Notes under the pieces: generated by a model
The model's database searches: none
What the model was told of the DNA's origin: nothing
Seen by the model: only the letters and a program-made list of their open reading frames with translations
Assembly (NCBI GenBank): GCA_003602475.1
Contig: QQSC01000045.1
Span: 1-50,784, forward strand
Length of the DNA: 50,784 nt
Direction of reading: 5' to 3'
Source of the DNA: Candidatus Poseidoniales archaeon
Lineage (GTDB): Archaea > Thermoplasmatota > Poseidoniia > Poseidoniales > Poseidoniaceae
Made by a program: the position numbers and the translations under genes
Part shown: piece after piece, positions 19,651-26,869 of the stretch
Position numbering within the stretch: position 1 is the first letter of the stretch
Layout: each line of letters opens with the position of its first letter

Positions 19651-22143
19651 ATGCCAGCCCCAAAACTACCAGAAAAGCGTTGGTCAATTGACCTTGAGAA
19701 GTCCATTCAAGAAGCACATTATGCCGATGAGGAAGCGTACAACAAACGCTACGGTTTCCAACCGAACACCACAAAAGAAGTGTTCGTCATCGACACCCCA
19801 CCGCCTTACCCCTCAGGAACATGGCACATTGGGGCCGTCGCTCAATATTCGATGATCGACGTCATCGCCCGCAGTCAGCGGTTGTTGGGCAAAGAGGTGT
19901 TCTTTCCATGGGGCGTTGACCGAAACGGCATCAACATCGAATTCACCGTTGAGAAAAACACCAAGCGGAAAATGAAAACATACGACAGAGAGGAATTCTT
20001 GACATTGTGCAAAGAAACCATCGAACACTTCACTCAGGCCATGAGGGTGACCGCCAAGCGCGTGGGCCTGTCGTGTGACTTCGAAAAAGAGTACCTCACC
20101 GACGCTCCAGACTATCGATCCGTAACCCAGTCCATTTTCGTTGAATTGTTCAAGCGTGGAGACATCGTTGAAGATCTTCGGCCCAACATTTACGATCCAA
20201 TTGAGGGCACCACGATTGCCGATGCTGAAGTTGAACGGATGAGCAGGAGGACGAAACTGGTTGATGTTCGATGGACCTGCGCTGACGGTACTGAACTGGT
20301 GATCTCAACCACACGTCCCGAACTCATCTGTGCATGCGGTGTTGTGGTGGTCCACCCTGATGACAGCCGGTATGAGCACCTCGTCGGTCAAACCATTGAA
20401 TTGCCGTTGCCAGCGGATGGGCGAACACAACAGGTTGAGGTCAGAACCCACCCCTCCGTGAAGTCTGAATTCGGAACCGGTGTGCTGATGGTTTGTTCGT
20501 TTGGAGACCAAAACGACGTAGCCGTGTTCCGAGAACTTGGTTTAACACCCTTTGCAGCCATCGGTCTTGACGGTTGCATGACCGATGTGGCAGGACCACT
20601 CAAGGGGCTTTCAGTCCGGGATGCTCGTGCGAAAGCCATTGAGTTGCTTGAAGAAAACGGACGATTGGTGCAAGCCATTGAGCGGGAACAAGATGTTCCC
20701 GTATCCGAACGTGGAAAAAACCCCGTCGAAATTATTCTTCTCAAGGAATGGTATGTCAAACAAACACACATTCAGGATCGCATGAGGGAGCACATCGAGA
20801 ACATCACGTTCCACCCTCCGCGAAACCGTCAGTTCTTGTTGGACTGGATGGACAACATCACCATTGATTGGCCAATTAGTCGGCGACGTTGGTACCATAC
20901 TGAGATTCCCATTTGGTACAACGACGACCAGACCCGTGTGGTCGTGCCTCCTGCTGGATCGTATGTCCAACCTTGGAAACAATCCCCGCCAGATGGAAGT
21001 AGGGTGCTCAACCGAACCACCCGGGAAGACCTTGGGGATTACGAGGAGTTGAAACACACGCTTGGAACCTTGACTGGAGAAGAAAAGGTGTTTGACACGT
21101 GGATGGACTCATCAAACTCGAACCTCTTTGTCAGCGGATACCTCAACGACGAGGAAACCTTTGCGAAGGCCTTCCCAACCGCATTGAGACCCCAAGGGAA
21201 GGAAATTGTTCGCACCTGGCTGTACTACACGCTTCTCAAATCAACGTTGCTTCTTGACCAACCGGGATTCAGCCACGTTTGGATTGACGGCTTGGGCATG
21301 GACCCGTGGGGTCGAAAAATGTCCAAATCCCTTGGCAACGGCATTGATGCCGATTCGGTTCTAGAATGCGGTGCAGGTGGACGAACCGGCTCATGGAGTG
21401 TAAAAGGCCCCGACGGGAGTGTTAAGTTGCGAGCCAATAAAATCGGTAGTGAGTGTTTCCGATTGTGGAAGGCGTGCGAAGCTCAAGTTGGGGATGACTT
21501 CCACATCAATCCTGAAGAGATTGAGAAGAAATATTTCGGAGTCCTGACAAAACTCTTCAACGTTGCTCGATTTGCTTCACAGTTTGAGGTTCCCGAAGAC
21601 CTTAACATCGTTCCTGAGGGATTGGCTGTTGAGGACGAATGGATCTTGTCTGAGTTCTCAAACATGATGCACGAGGTTAAAACCGCATGGACCAACGTTG
21701 ACATCTACACGGCCACGCAATCGTTGAAAACGTTCGGCACCGGTGTCTTGCCCAGTCACTATCTTGAGATGGTTAAATCCAGGCTCTACGATGACGATGA
21801 ACATGCTGCATGGACGCTGCACCGGATCGTCCGTGATCTGATGACCGCACTGAGTCCTGTTTGCCCCTTTTTCACCCACCACATCACAACCACGGTGTAC
21901 GGGTCCTCAGCCGTTGATGCTGATGCATTCCCAGCAACACCATTGGAATCTCTGAATCATGGTGAAGAACGTGGAGATGCGCTGCGAAACCAGAGTCATG
22001 AACTGCAGGAGTTCAACAGTCAAACATGGGCGTTGAAGAAAGAACGAGGTATCTCTCTAAACCAACCGGTTGACGGTATCGTTGTCCCAACCTCGCTCGT
22101 GGAATTCACATCCATCCTCACTCGGATGCATCAACTCCAGTGA
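19651..22143 (+). CDS. valS: Valine--tRNA ligase (class I aaRS)
   Basis: PPPYPSGTWHIGAVAQYSMIDVIAR, PWGVDRNGINIEFTVEKN, KMSKSLGNGID. ATG at 19651 preceded by GGTGAGG; the listed ORF starts at TTG 19633. Confidence 0.85.
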   Translation: MPAPKLPEKRWSIDLEKSIQEAHYADEEAYNKRYGFQPNTTKEVFVIDTPPPYPSGTWHIGAVAQYSMIDVIARSQRLLGKEVFFPWGVDRNGINIEFTVEKNTKRKMKTYDREEFLTLCKETIEHFTQAMRVTAKRVGLSCDFEKEYLTDAPDYRSVTQSIFVELFKRGDIVEDLRPNIYDPIEGTTIADAEVERMSRRTKLVDVRWTCADGTELVISTTRPELICACGVVVVHPDDSRYEHLVGQTIELPLPADGRTQQVEVRTHPSVKSEFGTGVLMVCSFGDQNDVAVFRELGLTPFAAIGLDGCMTDVAGPLKGLSVRDARAKAIELLEENGRLVQAIEREQDVPVSERGKNPVEIILLKEWYVKQTHIQDRMREHIENITFHPPRNRQFLLDWMDNITIDWPISRRRWYHTEIPIWYNDDQTRVVVPPAGSYVQPWKQSPPDGSRVLNRTTREDLGDYEELKHTLGTLTGEEKVFDTWMDSSNSNLFVSGYLNDEETFAKAFPTALRPQGKEIVRTWLYYTLLKSTLLLDQPGFSHVWIDGLGMDPWGRKMSKSLGNGIDADSVLECGAGGRTGSWSVKGPDGSVKLRANKIGSECFRLWKACEAQVGDDFHINPEEIEKKYFGVLTKLFNVARFASQFEVPEDLNIVPEGLAVEDEWILSEFSNMMHEVKTAWTNVDIYTATQSLKTFGTGVLPSHYLEMVKSRLYDDDEHAAWTLHRIVRDLMTALSPVCPFFTHHITTTVYGSSAVDADAFPATPLESLNHGEERGDALRNQSHELQEFNSQTWALKKERGISLNQPVDGIVVPTSLVEFTSILTRMHQLQ

Positions 22144-23281
22144 CCTCGTCGCCAAACAAGGTGGCTTGGCGCGAGTCGTGCATCTCCAAGTGGCCGAGAC
22201 GAAAACCAATCAACCGAATCGCAGAATCTGCGTCAACCGATTGAGCAAACAACCGCTGGGCAAGCCTCCAAAACACATCACTGTCGTCCATGGCAACCGG
22301 GATGCTTCTTCCGGTGGTGTGTGTTTCAAACCCGGTGTACCTGATTTTCACCTCACCAAGTCGACCTGAGAGGCCCATGCCACGGGCTTTTTCCATGACG
22401 GTGTCAACCAGGCGCTGCAGTTGGTCGAGGACCACTTCATGGTTGGTTTGGTCAGAGGCAAATGTCCGTTCTTTTCCAACTGATTTTCGGCTTCTCAGTT
22501 GACTGATCTCGGTGCTGCTCTCGCCTTCAACCACGCTGATGAACCATTTGGAAAACCGACTTCCTGCTAAACGCTCCAGGCCCAATTCACCAAGGCCGTG
22601 CACCTCATCAGCGGTTTGGTATCCCCACTCAGCCAACTGAGTAGCTCTTTTTGGCCCGATCCCAGGAATCTCTCGGAGAGAACGACCGTCAAAAAACGAT
22701 GTGACTTCATCCGGCATCACACGATGCACACCAAAGGGCTTCTCTTCTTCACTGGCCATCTTTGCCACGATTCTTGTCGGCCCAATGCCAAATGAAGCCG
22801 ACAGATGCAGCTGGTCCATGATGCGTTGCTGCAATCTTTTCGCCAGTGCCAAAGCTGCATCCCAATCGCCCTCTACCGTTTCAGTGATGTCCAAATACGC
22901 CTCATCAATGCTCGCAATTTCGAACCTTTTTGCATGAGGCCGAAGGATATCCATCACCTTACGACTGGCGCGACTGTACAATCCACGGGTTCCCGAGATG
23001 TATCGAGCGGGACCAAACGGGGCTGCTGGACAGCGCCTCCACGCTTCAGAGATGGGCATTGCTGAGTGAACACCGTAGGTTCTGGCTGCATAGTTGCAAG
23101 TGGAAACGATGCCACGGCCGCGTCCTTGTTGAGGGTCCGAACCAATCACGAGCGGTACATCCGGATCCAGATCGTGATGCAATGTCTCAACCGCGGCGAA
23201 AAAGGCGTCCAAATCGCAGTGCATCAACACACGCCCTTCGTCCATACCCGACGAAGCCGCTGCATCAACCATGATGAACAA
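22118..23281 (-). CDS. dinB: Y-family DNA polymerase IV (DinB)
   Basis: LMHCDLDAFFAAVE, YAARTYGVHSAMPISEA, ASIDEAYLDIT, ASFGIGPTRIVAKMASEEEKPFGV. Both acidic catalytic motifs intact. C-terminal QATLFGD is a possible clamp-binding motif. Start could be internal (23272 or 23245). Confidence 0.93.
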   Translation of the reverse strand: MFIMVDAAASSGMDEGRVLMHCDLDAFFAAVETLHHDLDPDVPLVIGSDPQQGRGRGIVSTCNYAARTYGVHSAMPISEAWRRCPAAPFGPARYISGTRGLYSRASRKVMDILRPHAKRFEIASIDEAYLDITETVEGDWDAALALAKRLQQRIMDQLHLSASFGIGPTRIVAKMASEEEKPFGVHRVMPDEVTSFFDGRSLREIPGIGPKRATQLAEWGYQTADEVHGLGELGLERLAGSRFSKWFISVVEGESSTEISQLRSRKSVGKERTFASDQTNHEVVLDQLQRLVDTVMEKARGMGLSGRLGEVKIRYTGFETHTTGRSIPVAMDDSDVFWRLAQRLFAQSVDADSAIRLIGFRLGHLEMHDSRQATLFGDEVTGVDASE

Positions 23282-23360
23282 TGTTGGTCAACGGCGTTTG
23301 AACATGATGGTTCACTTCAACAGCGGGGTGTGCGTAAACACTGAAGAGGGCAGTGGACCG

Positions 23361-24155
23361 ATGTACATGATTCACATGCCGTCATCGCCCAAACCCCACT
23401 TGCATCCCGTTCTGCGAAACGTCCTGCCCGTGCTGAACCCGTCCGACATTGCGCCACAACAAGGTCAAATCTACCACGTCAAAGGCCCCGGTCATCACGG
23501 GAAAGCAATGCGCAGTGTGGTGGAGCATTGGGTGACCAACGCATTGGCACAAGGCGAAGCAGTGCACTGGATTGACGGTGCATGCCGCATTGATCCCGGT
23601 CGTTTTATTCCATTGCTCAAACAGCGACGGACATCGGTTGAAGCCGCCCTCTCCCGTTTGTACTTGAGCCGGGGGTTCACCTTGCATCAACTCGACCACC
23701 AGTTGGACCGTCTGCCCAGAGAATTGGCCATCACACGAACACCGTTGCTTGTCGTTGACGGCTTGCTGACAATGCATGAGGACGATGCCATCCGACGTCG
23801 GGAGTCGCGTGTCTTGTTGAAACGGCACCTCGCATTGTTGCAACGCACGGCTCATGAACGGCACGTAGCGGTCGTCGTCATCACCGCTGCACATCACCAC
23901 GACCGACTGCAACAACAACGCATCGACCTCGTGCAACGGTCGGCCAACAATCACTTGACGGGAATCCAGCAAAAGCAGGGTCGAGCGAAGCATCTTCGCC
24001 TTCTGCACCCGAGGAGTGGACGCGCGGGGATGTGGGGCATTCCCCACTCCAGACAAACGGCGTTTCGAACATTAACTCGAGACCGTTCTTCAGCGGAGCA
24101 GGTGTCTTATCCGGTGTTGACAAACGCTGAGGAAAAATCCGTCAAACGTCGCTGA
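23361..24155 (+). CDS. RecA/RadA-like ATPase-fold protein with altered Walker A
   Basis: GQIYHVKGPGHHGKAM (GxxxxGKA, no Ser/Thr), WIDGACRIDPGRFIPLLKQR..VEAALSRLYLSRGFTLHQLDHQLDRL, PLLVVDGLL (Walker B-like), VAVVVITAAHHH. Start set at ATG 23361; the listed ORF begins at 23271. Confidence 0.65.
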   Translation: MYMIHMPSSPKPHLHPVLRNVLPVLNPSDIAPQQGQIYHVKGPGHHGKAMRSVVEHWVTNALAQGEAVHWIDGACRIDPGRFIPLLKQRRTSVEAALSRLYLSRGFTLHQLDHQLDRLPRELAITRTPLLVVDGLLTMHEDDAIRRRESRVLLKRHLALLQRTAHERHVAVVVITAAHHHDRLQQQRIDLVQRSANNHLTGIQQKQGRAKHLRLLHPRSGRAGMWGIPHSRQTAFRTLTRDRSSAEQVSYPVLTNAEEKSVKRR

Positions 24156-26548
24156 AGACCGGTCGTTCTCAGCGATGATTCCGTCCAGCCGAACGGAGCG
24201 AGAATGGCCCAAATCGCTCGTTCTGCAGCCACAGCATAGTGAACCTTGCACGGTTGTGCGTTGTCGAGCGGCAACTCTTCTTGCAACCGCACGCGCTCGT
24301 GGTGCAAGGATGCATTCTGGTCCACGACAACAAACCTCACCTTCCCCCCTGCCGGCACTCGATGCCCAGTTCGACGGGCACGCAACAACGCAGCATAGGT
24401 CAAACTCTTGGAACGGTACATCTCAATCTCTTTCGTCACGCGTCTGGCAATCAACGTCGCCTCGAGTGAAACGGTGCCCAAATGCAACCGGTGAACTTCC
24501 TTTCTGTACATGCGCAGAACCTCAAACTGCGCGTCCGTTGAAGGGATTCCATGCTCAAGAGGCGACGCTGAAAGGATGTCCAAACCACGTTTTTGGAGTT
24601 GTGCCACCCACAATGAAGTTGAATGTTGTCGCATCTCAATCCCACGAACTTTGTAATGTTCACCGGTGAACCCCCAGTATTTTGTCAGCGACCCCCCACC
24701 GTGGAGTCGGCTCGGAAGAAACGCAATGAAAGGGTAGTCGTGCTCAAACTCAAGAGGGATTCCAATTCGCTCGGTGACCTTGGCGGCCAACGAAGCGACA
24801 TCCGCCTTTCGAACGCTGGGACTTCTGCCTCGTTGATCTTGGATCCAAACGCAATCCACAATGGCATGCAACACGTCCCAGCCGTCATCGTTGGCCATCT
24901 CAATGGTCGTGAGCAAAATGTCCCGTGCCCACGCACAGATGGCCTCGTGCGCTTCGATGCGACCAAAACGAGCGTTGCGATAACCGGTGTATCCAAAGCA
25001 TGTGACAAGAAGCCATTTCAGGGCGTTTTGACGCTGGTCAAAGGCATCACCGGAGGACCGACGTTGAGCCTTGAGCTCACGTCGACGTTCGATGAGTGGA
25101 GCCACAACCCTACCCAAAAACCCCTGATGGCGGGCGCAAGTATGCATTTGAAGTCCGGGGACCGCCAACGCTTTGCGATGTGGCAACGGAAACAAGCCAT
25201 GTCCAAAGCGTTCCTCCACTTTCCGATGATGAAATTCTTGACGTGCTCGGTCGGGGTGAAGTGGAACGAAAATTGGCGGTAAATCCGTTGTTGCCGGTTG
25301 ACAACACGAGCAGTTTAACGTCTCGGGCGAAATGTTGCGCGTGGCGATAATACTCGGGAACAAACTGGCGAAGTCAAGTTCTGTCACCGACGCATGAACG
25401 CCTGGTTGGCTGTCAAGGTACAGGCCACCACGGTCTGCATGGAGCAATTCCCAAGCGGATTTGGTGTCCTCTGAACGGTTTTTTTTCCACGGCACGAGAA
25501 CACCATCGTCCATTGCTAATCTCATTTGGATGGCACTGATGACCGAACCTGGAGAAAGACGCGAAATGACCTGAGCGGATTGAAACGAGTGCTGAGCCAG
25601 TTCGAGCAAACCCGCCAAACCGCCTTCGCGAACGATGAAACTGTTGGCCTTGTCAATGTGAAGACGCCCTTCAAAGAAAAACGCCCCGTGCTTGTGCAGG
25701 GTCTGGCCGTACGAATGAACGGTTCGTTCCGAGGTGGAACGGGACAACGCTTGTTGGCCTCGACCGAAACGAAACGCTGCACCTGCGTGTTCGGACCAAT
25801 GAACCAAGGATGGGAAAAAACGTTGGTCACCTCCAACCGTGACGATCACGTCTGGATCGATACGATTCAGCGCATCCTGCACGGCTTCGAGAAAGGTCAT
25901 GAGTGAATCATGAGCGTCGCGCTGGATGCGTTCTGTTTGGGAAAACATCGACGGGCGAAGACCAAGAGAGGTCACGGTTGCGATGTGCACCGATGTCAAA
26001 TCGTCGTGGATTGAAGCAAAGCCCGAAGCCGACCGATATTCACATCGGAATTCAACGACATGAAACGGAGGGAATTCTGTTGTGATTGGAGCCGGGTGAA
26101 CCGGACGCAGCATGACGCCGTCCCACAGTACTCGCGAAAACGGTGCACAGCCAATGTCCGTCAGAAAACGTTGCGTCAGATGCGCATCCACTGAGTGCAA
26201 TGTAAATCGGTGATAATCTCCGCGTGATTCAATGTGCTCGGCCAAGGGTCGCAAGTGTCCATAACCTCCCAACACCACCACCAAGACCCGTTGCACATCG
26301 TTCTGTTCAAGATGCAAACGGGCTTGCGACATTTGCGTACTGACGATGGTAAAGCGACGAACCAGTTCCGGTTGCGTCAGCCAGCGTTCAAGGGCTTGAA
26401 GATGCGCAACGCTACCTGCCACATGCAACTTCACACTCCAGGGCATCGTACAGGCATGAGCTTGCCCCGAATCGTCCACAACCCATGCCGTCATGCACGA
26501 ACGGTCACCATGTTCGTGAGCGTCAAGCAACCAACCTTCAATCGCCAT
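24107..26548 (-). CDS. Family B DNA polymerase homologue with degenerate active site (PolB2-like)
   Basis: Motif A VTELDFASLFPSIIATRNISPET; motif B QNALKWLLVTCFGYTGYRNARFGRIEAHEAI; motif C position reads AIVDCVWIQ instead of YGDTDS. LLELAQHSFQSAQVISRLSPGSVISAIQMRLA matches the ExoIII-palm linker of PolB. Start at ATG 26548 (MAIEGWLL). Confidence 0.85.
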   Translation of the reverse strand: MAIEGWLLDAHEHGDRSCMTAWVVDDSGQAHACTMPWSVKLHVAGSVAHLQALERWLTQPELVRRFTIVSTQMSQARLHLEQNDVQRVLVVVLGGYGHLRPLAEHIESRGDYHRFTLHSVDAHLTQRFLTDIGCAPFSRVLWDGVMLRPVHPAPITTEFPPFHVVEFRCEYRSASGFASIHDDLTSVHIATVTSLGLRPSMFSQTERIQRDAHDSLMTFLEAVQDALNRIDPDVIVTVGGDQRFFPSLVHWSEHAGAAFRFGRGQQALSRSTSERTVHSYGQTLHKHGAFFFEGRLHIDKANSFIVREGGLAGLLELAQHSFQSAQVISRLSPGSVISAIQMRLAMDDGVLVPWKKNRSEDTKSAWELLHADRGGLYLDSQPGVHASVTELDFASLFPSIIATRNISPETLNCSCCQPATTDLPPIFVPLHPDRARQEFHHRKVEERFGHGLFPLPHRKALAVPGLQMHTCARHQGFLGRVVAPLIERRRELKAQRRSSGDAFDQRQNALKWLLVTCFGYTGYRNARFGRIEAHEAICAWARDILLTTIEMANDDGWDVLHAIVDCVWIQDQRGRSPSVRKADVASLAAKVTERIGIPLEFEHDYPFIAFLPSRLHGGGSLTKYWGFTGEHYKVRGIEMRQHSTSLWVAQLQKRGLDILSASPLEHGIPSTDAQFEVLRMYRKEVHRLHLGTVSLEATLIARRVTKEIEMYRSKSLTYAALLRARRTGHRVPAGGKVRFVVVDQNASLHHERVRLQEELPLDNAQPCKVHYAVAAERAIWAILAPFGWTESSLRTTGLQRRLTDFSSAFVNTG

Positions 26549-26807
26549 GTGCCATCCCTTCCAGTTCTGAGATACGCCGTTCCAAGGCGTCAACTTGGGA
26601 CATCAGACCAACGAGCATGCTCAGCATGAACGGAGGCCAAACATCATGACCGGGGAGCATGCCCCCAGCGGTGCGTCGTTGTCGAACCGAATCCATCAGC
26701 GCATCAAAATGAGGCTGTTCCTGCTTGGGCAAGGCGCGCCGAAACGGCTCAAGAGCCTGAAGTTCGACCTCTGCTCGTGTACGCCATGTTGGAACGCTTC
26801 GACCCAT
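26538..26807 (-). CDS. Small (89 aa) protein with C-terminal coiled coil, translationally coupled to PolB2-like gene
   Basis: ORF MGRSVPTWRTRAEVELQALEPFRRALPKQEQPHFDALMDSVRQRRTAGG..MSQVDALERRISELEGMAHGD. Its 3' end overlaps the PolB2 ATG within ATGGCACATGGCGATTGA. Confidence 0.7.
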   Translation of the reverse strand: MGRSVPTWRTRAEVELQALEPFRRALPKQEQPHFDALMDSVRQRRTAGGMLPGHDVWPPFMLSMLVGLMSQVDALERRISELEGMAHGD

Positions 26808-26869
26808 ATCCGGTGAAGTTCAGGGACAGACGGGAAGCCTTCGTGTCACCCCAAAACTGAAACTGAATC

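Follow-up and report, generated by a model that had tools for sequence, protein, structure and literature searches.

The closest described relative of the system treated here is the archaeal PolB2 mutasome, which consists of PolB2, its partner PPB2 and iRadA (PMC11791011), and whose genes lie in the same orientation in most cases. PolB2 carries an HxxxD signature as motif C, and Sulfolobus Dpo2, which bears that signature, polymerises robustly and extends mismatches efficiently (PMC8764526). According to structural work summarised in the same paper, the second Asp of motif C contacts metal and the first is directed away. In Sulfolobales, ANTTTC is a DNA-damage response element bound by Orc1-2 (PMC9738581). 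Our literature search found no published biochemistry of any Poseidoniales PolB2 and no description of a Poseidoniales DNA-damage response. The window, meaning the whole 50,784-nucleotide stretch that was analysed, is one entire contig of a 1.95-Mb assembly from Poseidoniales (Marine Group II). It encodes at one locus three genes with the hallmark features of the mutasome of PMC11791011, and judged from these genes the locus is a PolB2 mutasome of the known kind; what appears new is its layout and regulation. We consider it very probable that the long ORF discussed below is PolB2, the polymerase subunit of this mutasome and an active lesion-bypass extender, with the iRadA and PPB2 units probably coordinated through an element that both have upstream. 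PolB2 and its partner, the inactivated RadA, would then be tied together by a concrete regulatory link in a group of ocean archaea that is major but uncultivated.

The PolB2 CDS occupies 24107–26548 on the minus strand and encodes 813 aa, assigned from ORF reading, profile matches and a predicted model as a B-family translesion polymerase without proofreading. The start at 26548 is the first ATG, and a TTG start at 26593 would lengthen the ORF. The profile DNA_pol_B matches at E = 1.6e-21. The best NCBIfam, NF004418, scores 401.8 bits, below its cut-off of 692. The AlphaFold model is a confident B-family fold (pLDDT 88.8, pTM 0.88), and the closest solved folds are archaeal B-family polymerases with TM of about 0.6–0.77. 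A separate canonical PolB with FDLET and YSDTDS is encoded elsewhere in the same genome. The window protein shares with Sulfolobus Dpo2 and archaeal PolB2 (PMC8764526, PMC7390963) the HxxxD motif C, the motif A Asp, the lost exonuclease motifs and the B-family fold. It is longer than Dpo2, which is reported as the smallest PolB2, and differs from it by a Phe for Tyr in SLYPS. It is also 34–37% identical to the haloarchaeal plasmid PolB2 of Natrinema versiforme pNVE500, where two "hypothetical" genes precede PolB2 on the same strand and SRAP and Cdc6 genes are nearby.

An earlier sequence-only reading of this DNA had recognised the intact ORF and motif A (LDFASLFPSI), both of which we find. It also took the enzyme to have lost its standard chemistry, on the ground that the second Asp of motif C is Val in the string IVDCVWI. 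The string does occur in the ORF, but the reading set DCV on DTD and is displaced by two residues. When the protein is aligned by profile to solved archaeal polymerases, LHAIVDCVW falls opposite the canonical LYADTDGFF, so that motif C is HAIVD (aa 561–565; 24854–24868, minus strand), the PolB2 HxxxD, with D565 as the retained second Asp and I563 in place of the first. The substitutions are thus Tyr to His, first Asp to Ile and Thr to Val, whereas the second Asp, the one that binds metal, is kept, at a position shifted from where it had been sought. Conservation was read from 52 PolB2 relatives, ranging from Poseidoniales through Methanomassiliicoccales and other archaea. H561, I563, D565, W568, D392 of motif A and K511 of motif B are invariant among them, while position 567, which had been called the lost Asp, is V, L, I or M. 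Since H561 and D565 are invariant and 567 varies in this way, only the LYADTDGFF/LHAIVDCVW register fits. Motif A reads ELDFASLFPSI (aa 390–400; 25349–25381, minus strand), with its catalytic D392 invariant in 52/52. Motif B is non-canonical, KWLLVTCFGY against K..LANSFYGY, which speaks to some extent against the assignment as an active PolB2.

These residues bear on whether the protein might be a B-family polymerase that has lost catalysis and is retained for a structural part in a replisome or repair complex, which was the original published guess for the PolB2 family in 2008 (PMC2527604). Consistent with that idea, motif C has its Tyr and first Asp replaced in all sampled relatives, and every exonuclease residue is lost. 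Yet the 52 sequences show no change at either metal-binding Asp, in motif A or at the motif B Lys, and the orthologous Sulfolobus HxxxD enzymes, purified, are robust polymerases that match the replicase in activity and extend mispaired ends (PMC8764526). We therefore regard a dead polymerase as improbable, and the suggestion of a scaffold role made from the sequence is not supported. The suggestion of an unorthodox active site survives in part, in that the YxDTD Tyr and first Asp are gone throughout, but the metal-binding Asps are in place. By carry-over from Sulfolobus across a large evolutionary distance, the window PolB2 is predicted to be active as a DNA polymerase. Most likely it helps to copy past DNA damage and is not an inert scaffold, and the dead-polymerase reading is corrected to a family of translesion extenders with its metal-binding residues present.

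The degradation of the exonuclease was, in contrast, read correctly. The ExoI region is FHVVEFRCEY (aa 162–171; 26036–26065, minus strand), with its catalytic residues not conserved, and the ExoII region is VTVGGDQRFFPSL (aa 236–248; 25805–25843, minus strand), where alignment and conservation show the N and FD lost. The profile alignment pairs DPDVLITYNGDNFAFAYL, taken from the entry for an exonuclease mutant of an archaeal PolB, with "dpdvivtvggdqrffpsl" of the window, and the catalytic positions of both ExoI and ExoII vary freely among the 52 relatives. The proofreading site of the window PolB2 is lost, as it is in other members of the PolB2 family.

Motifs this unlike those of textbook polymerases could also be taken as the mark of a decaying pseudogene. 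Over 39 pairs of Poseidoniales polB2 the median dN/dS is 0.08 (Nei-Gojobori, pairs with 0.05 < dS < 1.5, some being one sequence under two locus ids), indicating strong purifying selection and bearing out the earlier statement that the gene is maintained. The value comes from pairs other than those of the window polB2, since dS is saturated for the latter even with the nearest relative. Two outlier pairs at 0.3–0.4 are highly divergent and near saturation. In-frame stops are absent from every PolB2 match in 25 genomes, and the partners and motifs are conserved. With intact orthologues and a dN/dS far from 1, pseudogene decay is ruled out for practical purposes.

Upstream of PolB2 on the same strand is PPB2 (26538–26807, minus strand), 89 aa, which shares 11 nt with the beginning of PolB2. 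Its N-terminal arm reads MGRSVPTWR, and an MGRS or MGRT arm is carried by PPB2 across Poseidoniales loci. The third gene, iRadA, is an inactivated RadA paralogue at 23361–24155 on the plus strand; its ORF opens at 23271 and conserved starts lie near 23361/23367. Rad51/RadB profiles match it weakly. Aligned with the true RadA encoded elsewhere in its own genome, it is without the N-terminal HhH domain, has GPGHHGKAM as P-loop where true RadA has GEFGSGKTQ, and has DGACRID where RadA has DTEDTF, so that the catalytic Glu is lost. We considered whether iRadA could be an active ATPase, as several relatives, whose iRadA genes were located by profile search, keep GxxxxGKS. This was rejected, since the catalytic Glu is missing and the loop sequence is not stable (GKAM, GASM, GDRM). 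The full Walker A GxxxxGKS stands beside a lost catalytic Glu in the iRadA of four loci (L036, L041, L043, L053), and these proteins might bind nucleotide without hydrolysing it.

Two further stretches of PolB2 may relate to its partners. A conserved TxxSYG stretch with the D299 loop (HIDK), at 25637–25726 on the minus strand, corresponds in position to the published iRadA/PPB2-binding loop (PMC11791011), and a like role is inferred by analogy. The D(K/R) motif of that loop is present as HIDK, the Asp being found in 51/52 relatives and the K/R not being conserved. At the C-terminus, LQRRLTDF (aa 798–805; 24134–24157, minus strand) resembles a PCNA-clamp-binding motif. QxxLL[DES]F is found there in most same-genus relatives and is degenerate across the wider set. 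Going by Sulfolobus, PolB2 would insert poorly opposite lesions and extend mispaired ends well after bypass, iRadA and a PPB2 trimer would hold it in a complex, and its attachment to PCNA may go through the C-terminal motif. The inserter could be DinB, whose gene is adjacent. This gene, a DinB/Dpo4-like Y-family polymerase by profile matches (22118–23281, minus strand), is divergent from iRadA, and no second Y-family gene was found in the assembly; a divergent dinB adjoins iRadA in the window and 18 same-genus relatives.

The single orientation that is usual, though not universal, for the mutasome genes is not what the window has, for iRadA lies on the other strand and runs towards PolB2. This convergence was found in 24/24 relatives with a fetched neighbourhood. 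Among 80 named loci it holds wherever iRadA was detected in Poseidoniales, whereas iRadA, PPB2 and PolB2 are on a single strand in every non-Poseidoniales locus with one. We found no published description of the convergent layout with a shared element, although the supplementary data of PMC11791011, which lay outside the search, may list such arrangements. The coding ends of iRadA and PolB2 overlap tail to tail by 49 bp (24107–24155), and they overlap in 58/65 scorable Poseidoniales loci. As a special feature this overlap was downgraded, since 15/33 convergent pairs in the window genome overlap by a rough gene call over about 240 kb, with 49 bp still at the long end; the orientation is therefore the distinctive part of the layout. 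That same count is among the points favouring a layout and element without regulatory meaning, namely an ancestral inversion in compact genomes and a generic promoter element. In two Poseidoniaceae loci (L071, L088) about 2.3 kb separates the ends of PolB2 and iRadA, and the convergence is kept.

Between dinB and iRadA lies an intergenic element (23293–23331, plus strand; core TTCACTTCAACAGCGGGGT at 23311–23329) that is conserved in 19/19 genomes, and a matching element, TTCAGTTTCAGTTTTGGGGT, is found by pattern upstream of PPB2-PolB2 (26848–26867, minus strand). Both units have TTCA[CG]TT(T)CA-n-GGG(G)T upstream, a form that hardly occurs in the rest of these genomes, although for the window's own genome the pattern was derived from the two sites it finds, and its uniqueness alone proves little. 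Over 23 same-genus genomes, TTCASTTN{0,1}CAN{5,8}GGGTC has 30 matches against 5 for the reversed control; 22 of the 30 precede PPB2 or iRadA, 2 precede a single family of ~189 aa, and 6 fall inside long ORFs. The pattern CACTTTCACTTTC has 21 matches against a control of 2, of which PPB2 accounts for 15, the ~189-aa family for 3 and a small protein for 2. In a position-weight scan trained on the relatives' PPB2 sites, the window's diverged sites fall below threshold, and the top match, upstream of the own-genome propeller gene described below, scores 14.2 against 14.1 for the best shuffle. As this match is no better than shuffle, the case for the element is built on the pattern counts and on conservation between genomes.

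The Sulfolobales ANTTTC also occurs upstream of PPB2 in 48/64 Poseidoniales loci against 7.3 in shuffles, related loci not being independent. Of the two elements, that of Poseidonia is the longer and includes a GGGTC block. Neither Orc1/Cdc6 gene of the window genome has ANTTTC in its upstream 200 bp, so that a regulator shared with Sulfolobales is only a lead. That absence leaves a Sulfolobus-type regulator unsupported by autoregulation and, together with the frequent overlap of convergent genes, lends something to the inversion and generic promoter. Against them are the genome-wide rarity of the element patterns and their concentration at PPB2 and iRadA relative to the controls, and on balance we think an arrangement without regulatory meaning rather unlikely. 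The counts suggest instead that the element-bearing genes form a small co-regulated set, possibly one responsive to damage, with the iRadA and PPB2-polB2 units probably synchronised by their common upstream element and not as a single operon.

A candidate extra member of the set is a propeller-like gene of about 188–189 aa (L212, at C46:26243–26806 in the window's own genome; orthologues L211, L213–L219). Its only Pfam lead is a single weak beta-propeller match, and a recognisable element lies upstream of it in 8/8 genomes whose upstream was read, the window's own included. We put forward, tentatively and as somewhat less than an even chance, that Poseidoniales have a dedicated lesion-bypass regulon, in which TTCA[CG]TT(T)CA-n-GGG(G)T would co-control the facing PPB2-PolB2 and iRadA units and also drive the propeller-like protein, possibly a new mutasome accessory, and in which the element may be a damage-response element related to ANTTTC.

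Some smaller observations concern the sites themselves. At the propeller-like gene, the element begins where a small, conserved gene lying upstream reaches its stop codon. In the intergenic element, the half that faces dinB (23293–23310, GTTTGAACATGA; reverse complement TCATGTTCAAAC) resembles the iRadA-facing half-site TTCACTTCAAC, and from this likeness dinB may share control with iRadA. In two genomes, CACTTTCACTTTC at 1501–1513 of L200 and L209 precedes a protein of ~58–74 aa (ALCWT.FAPL.R.KR). A second PPB2 upstream region in G016, on the short contig C36 (L186), has a 21-bp site identical to that of G008 and is possibly contamination or a strain duplicate in that assembly.
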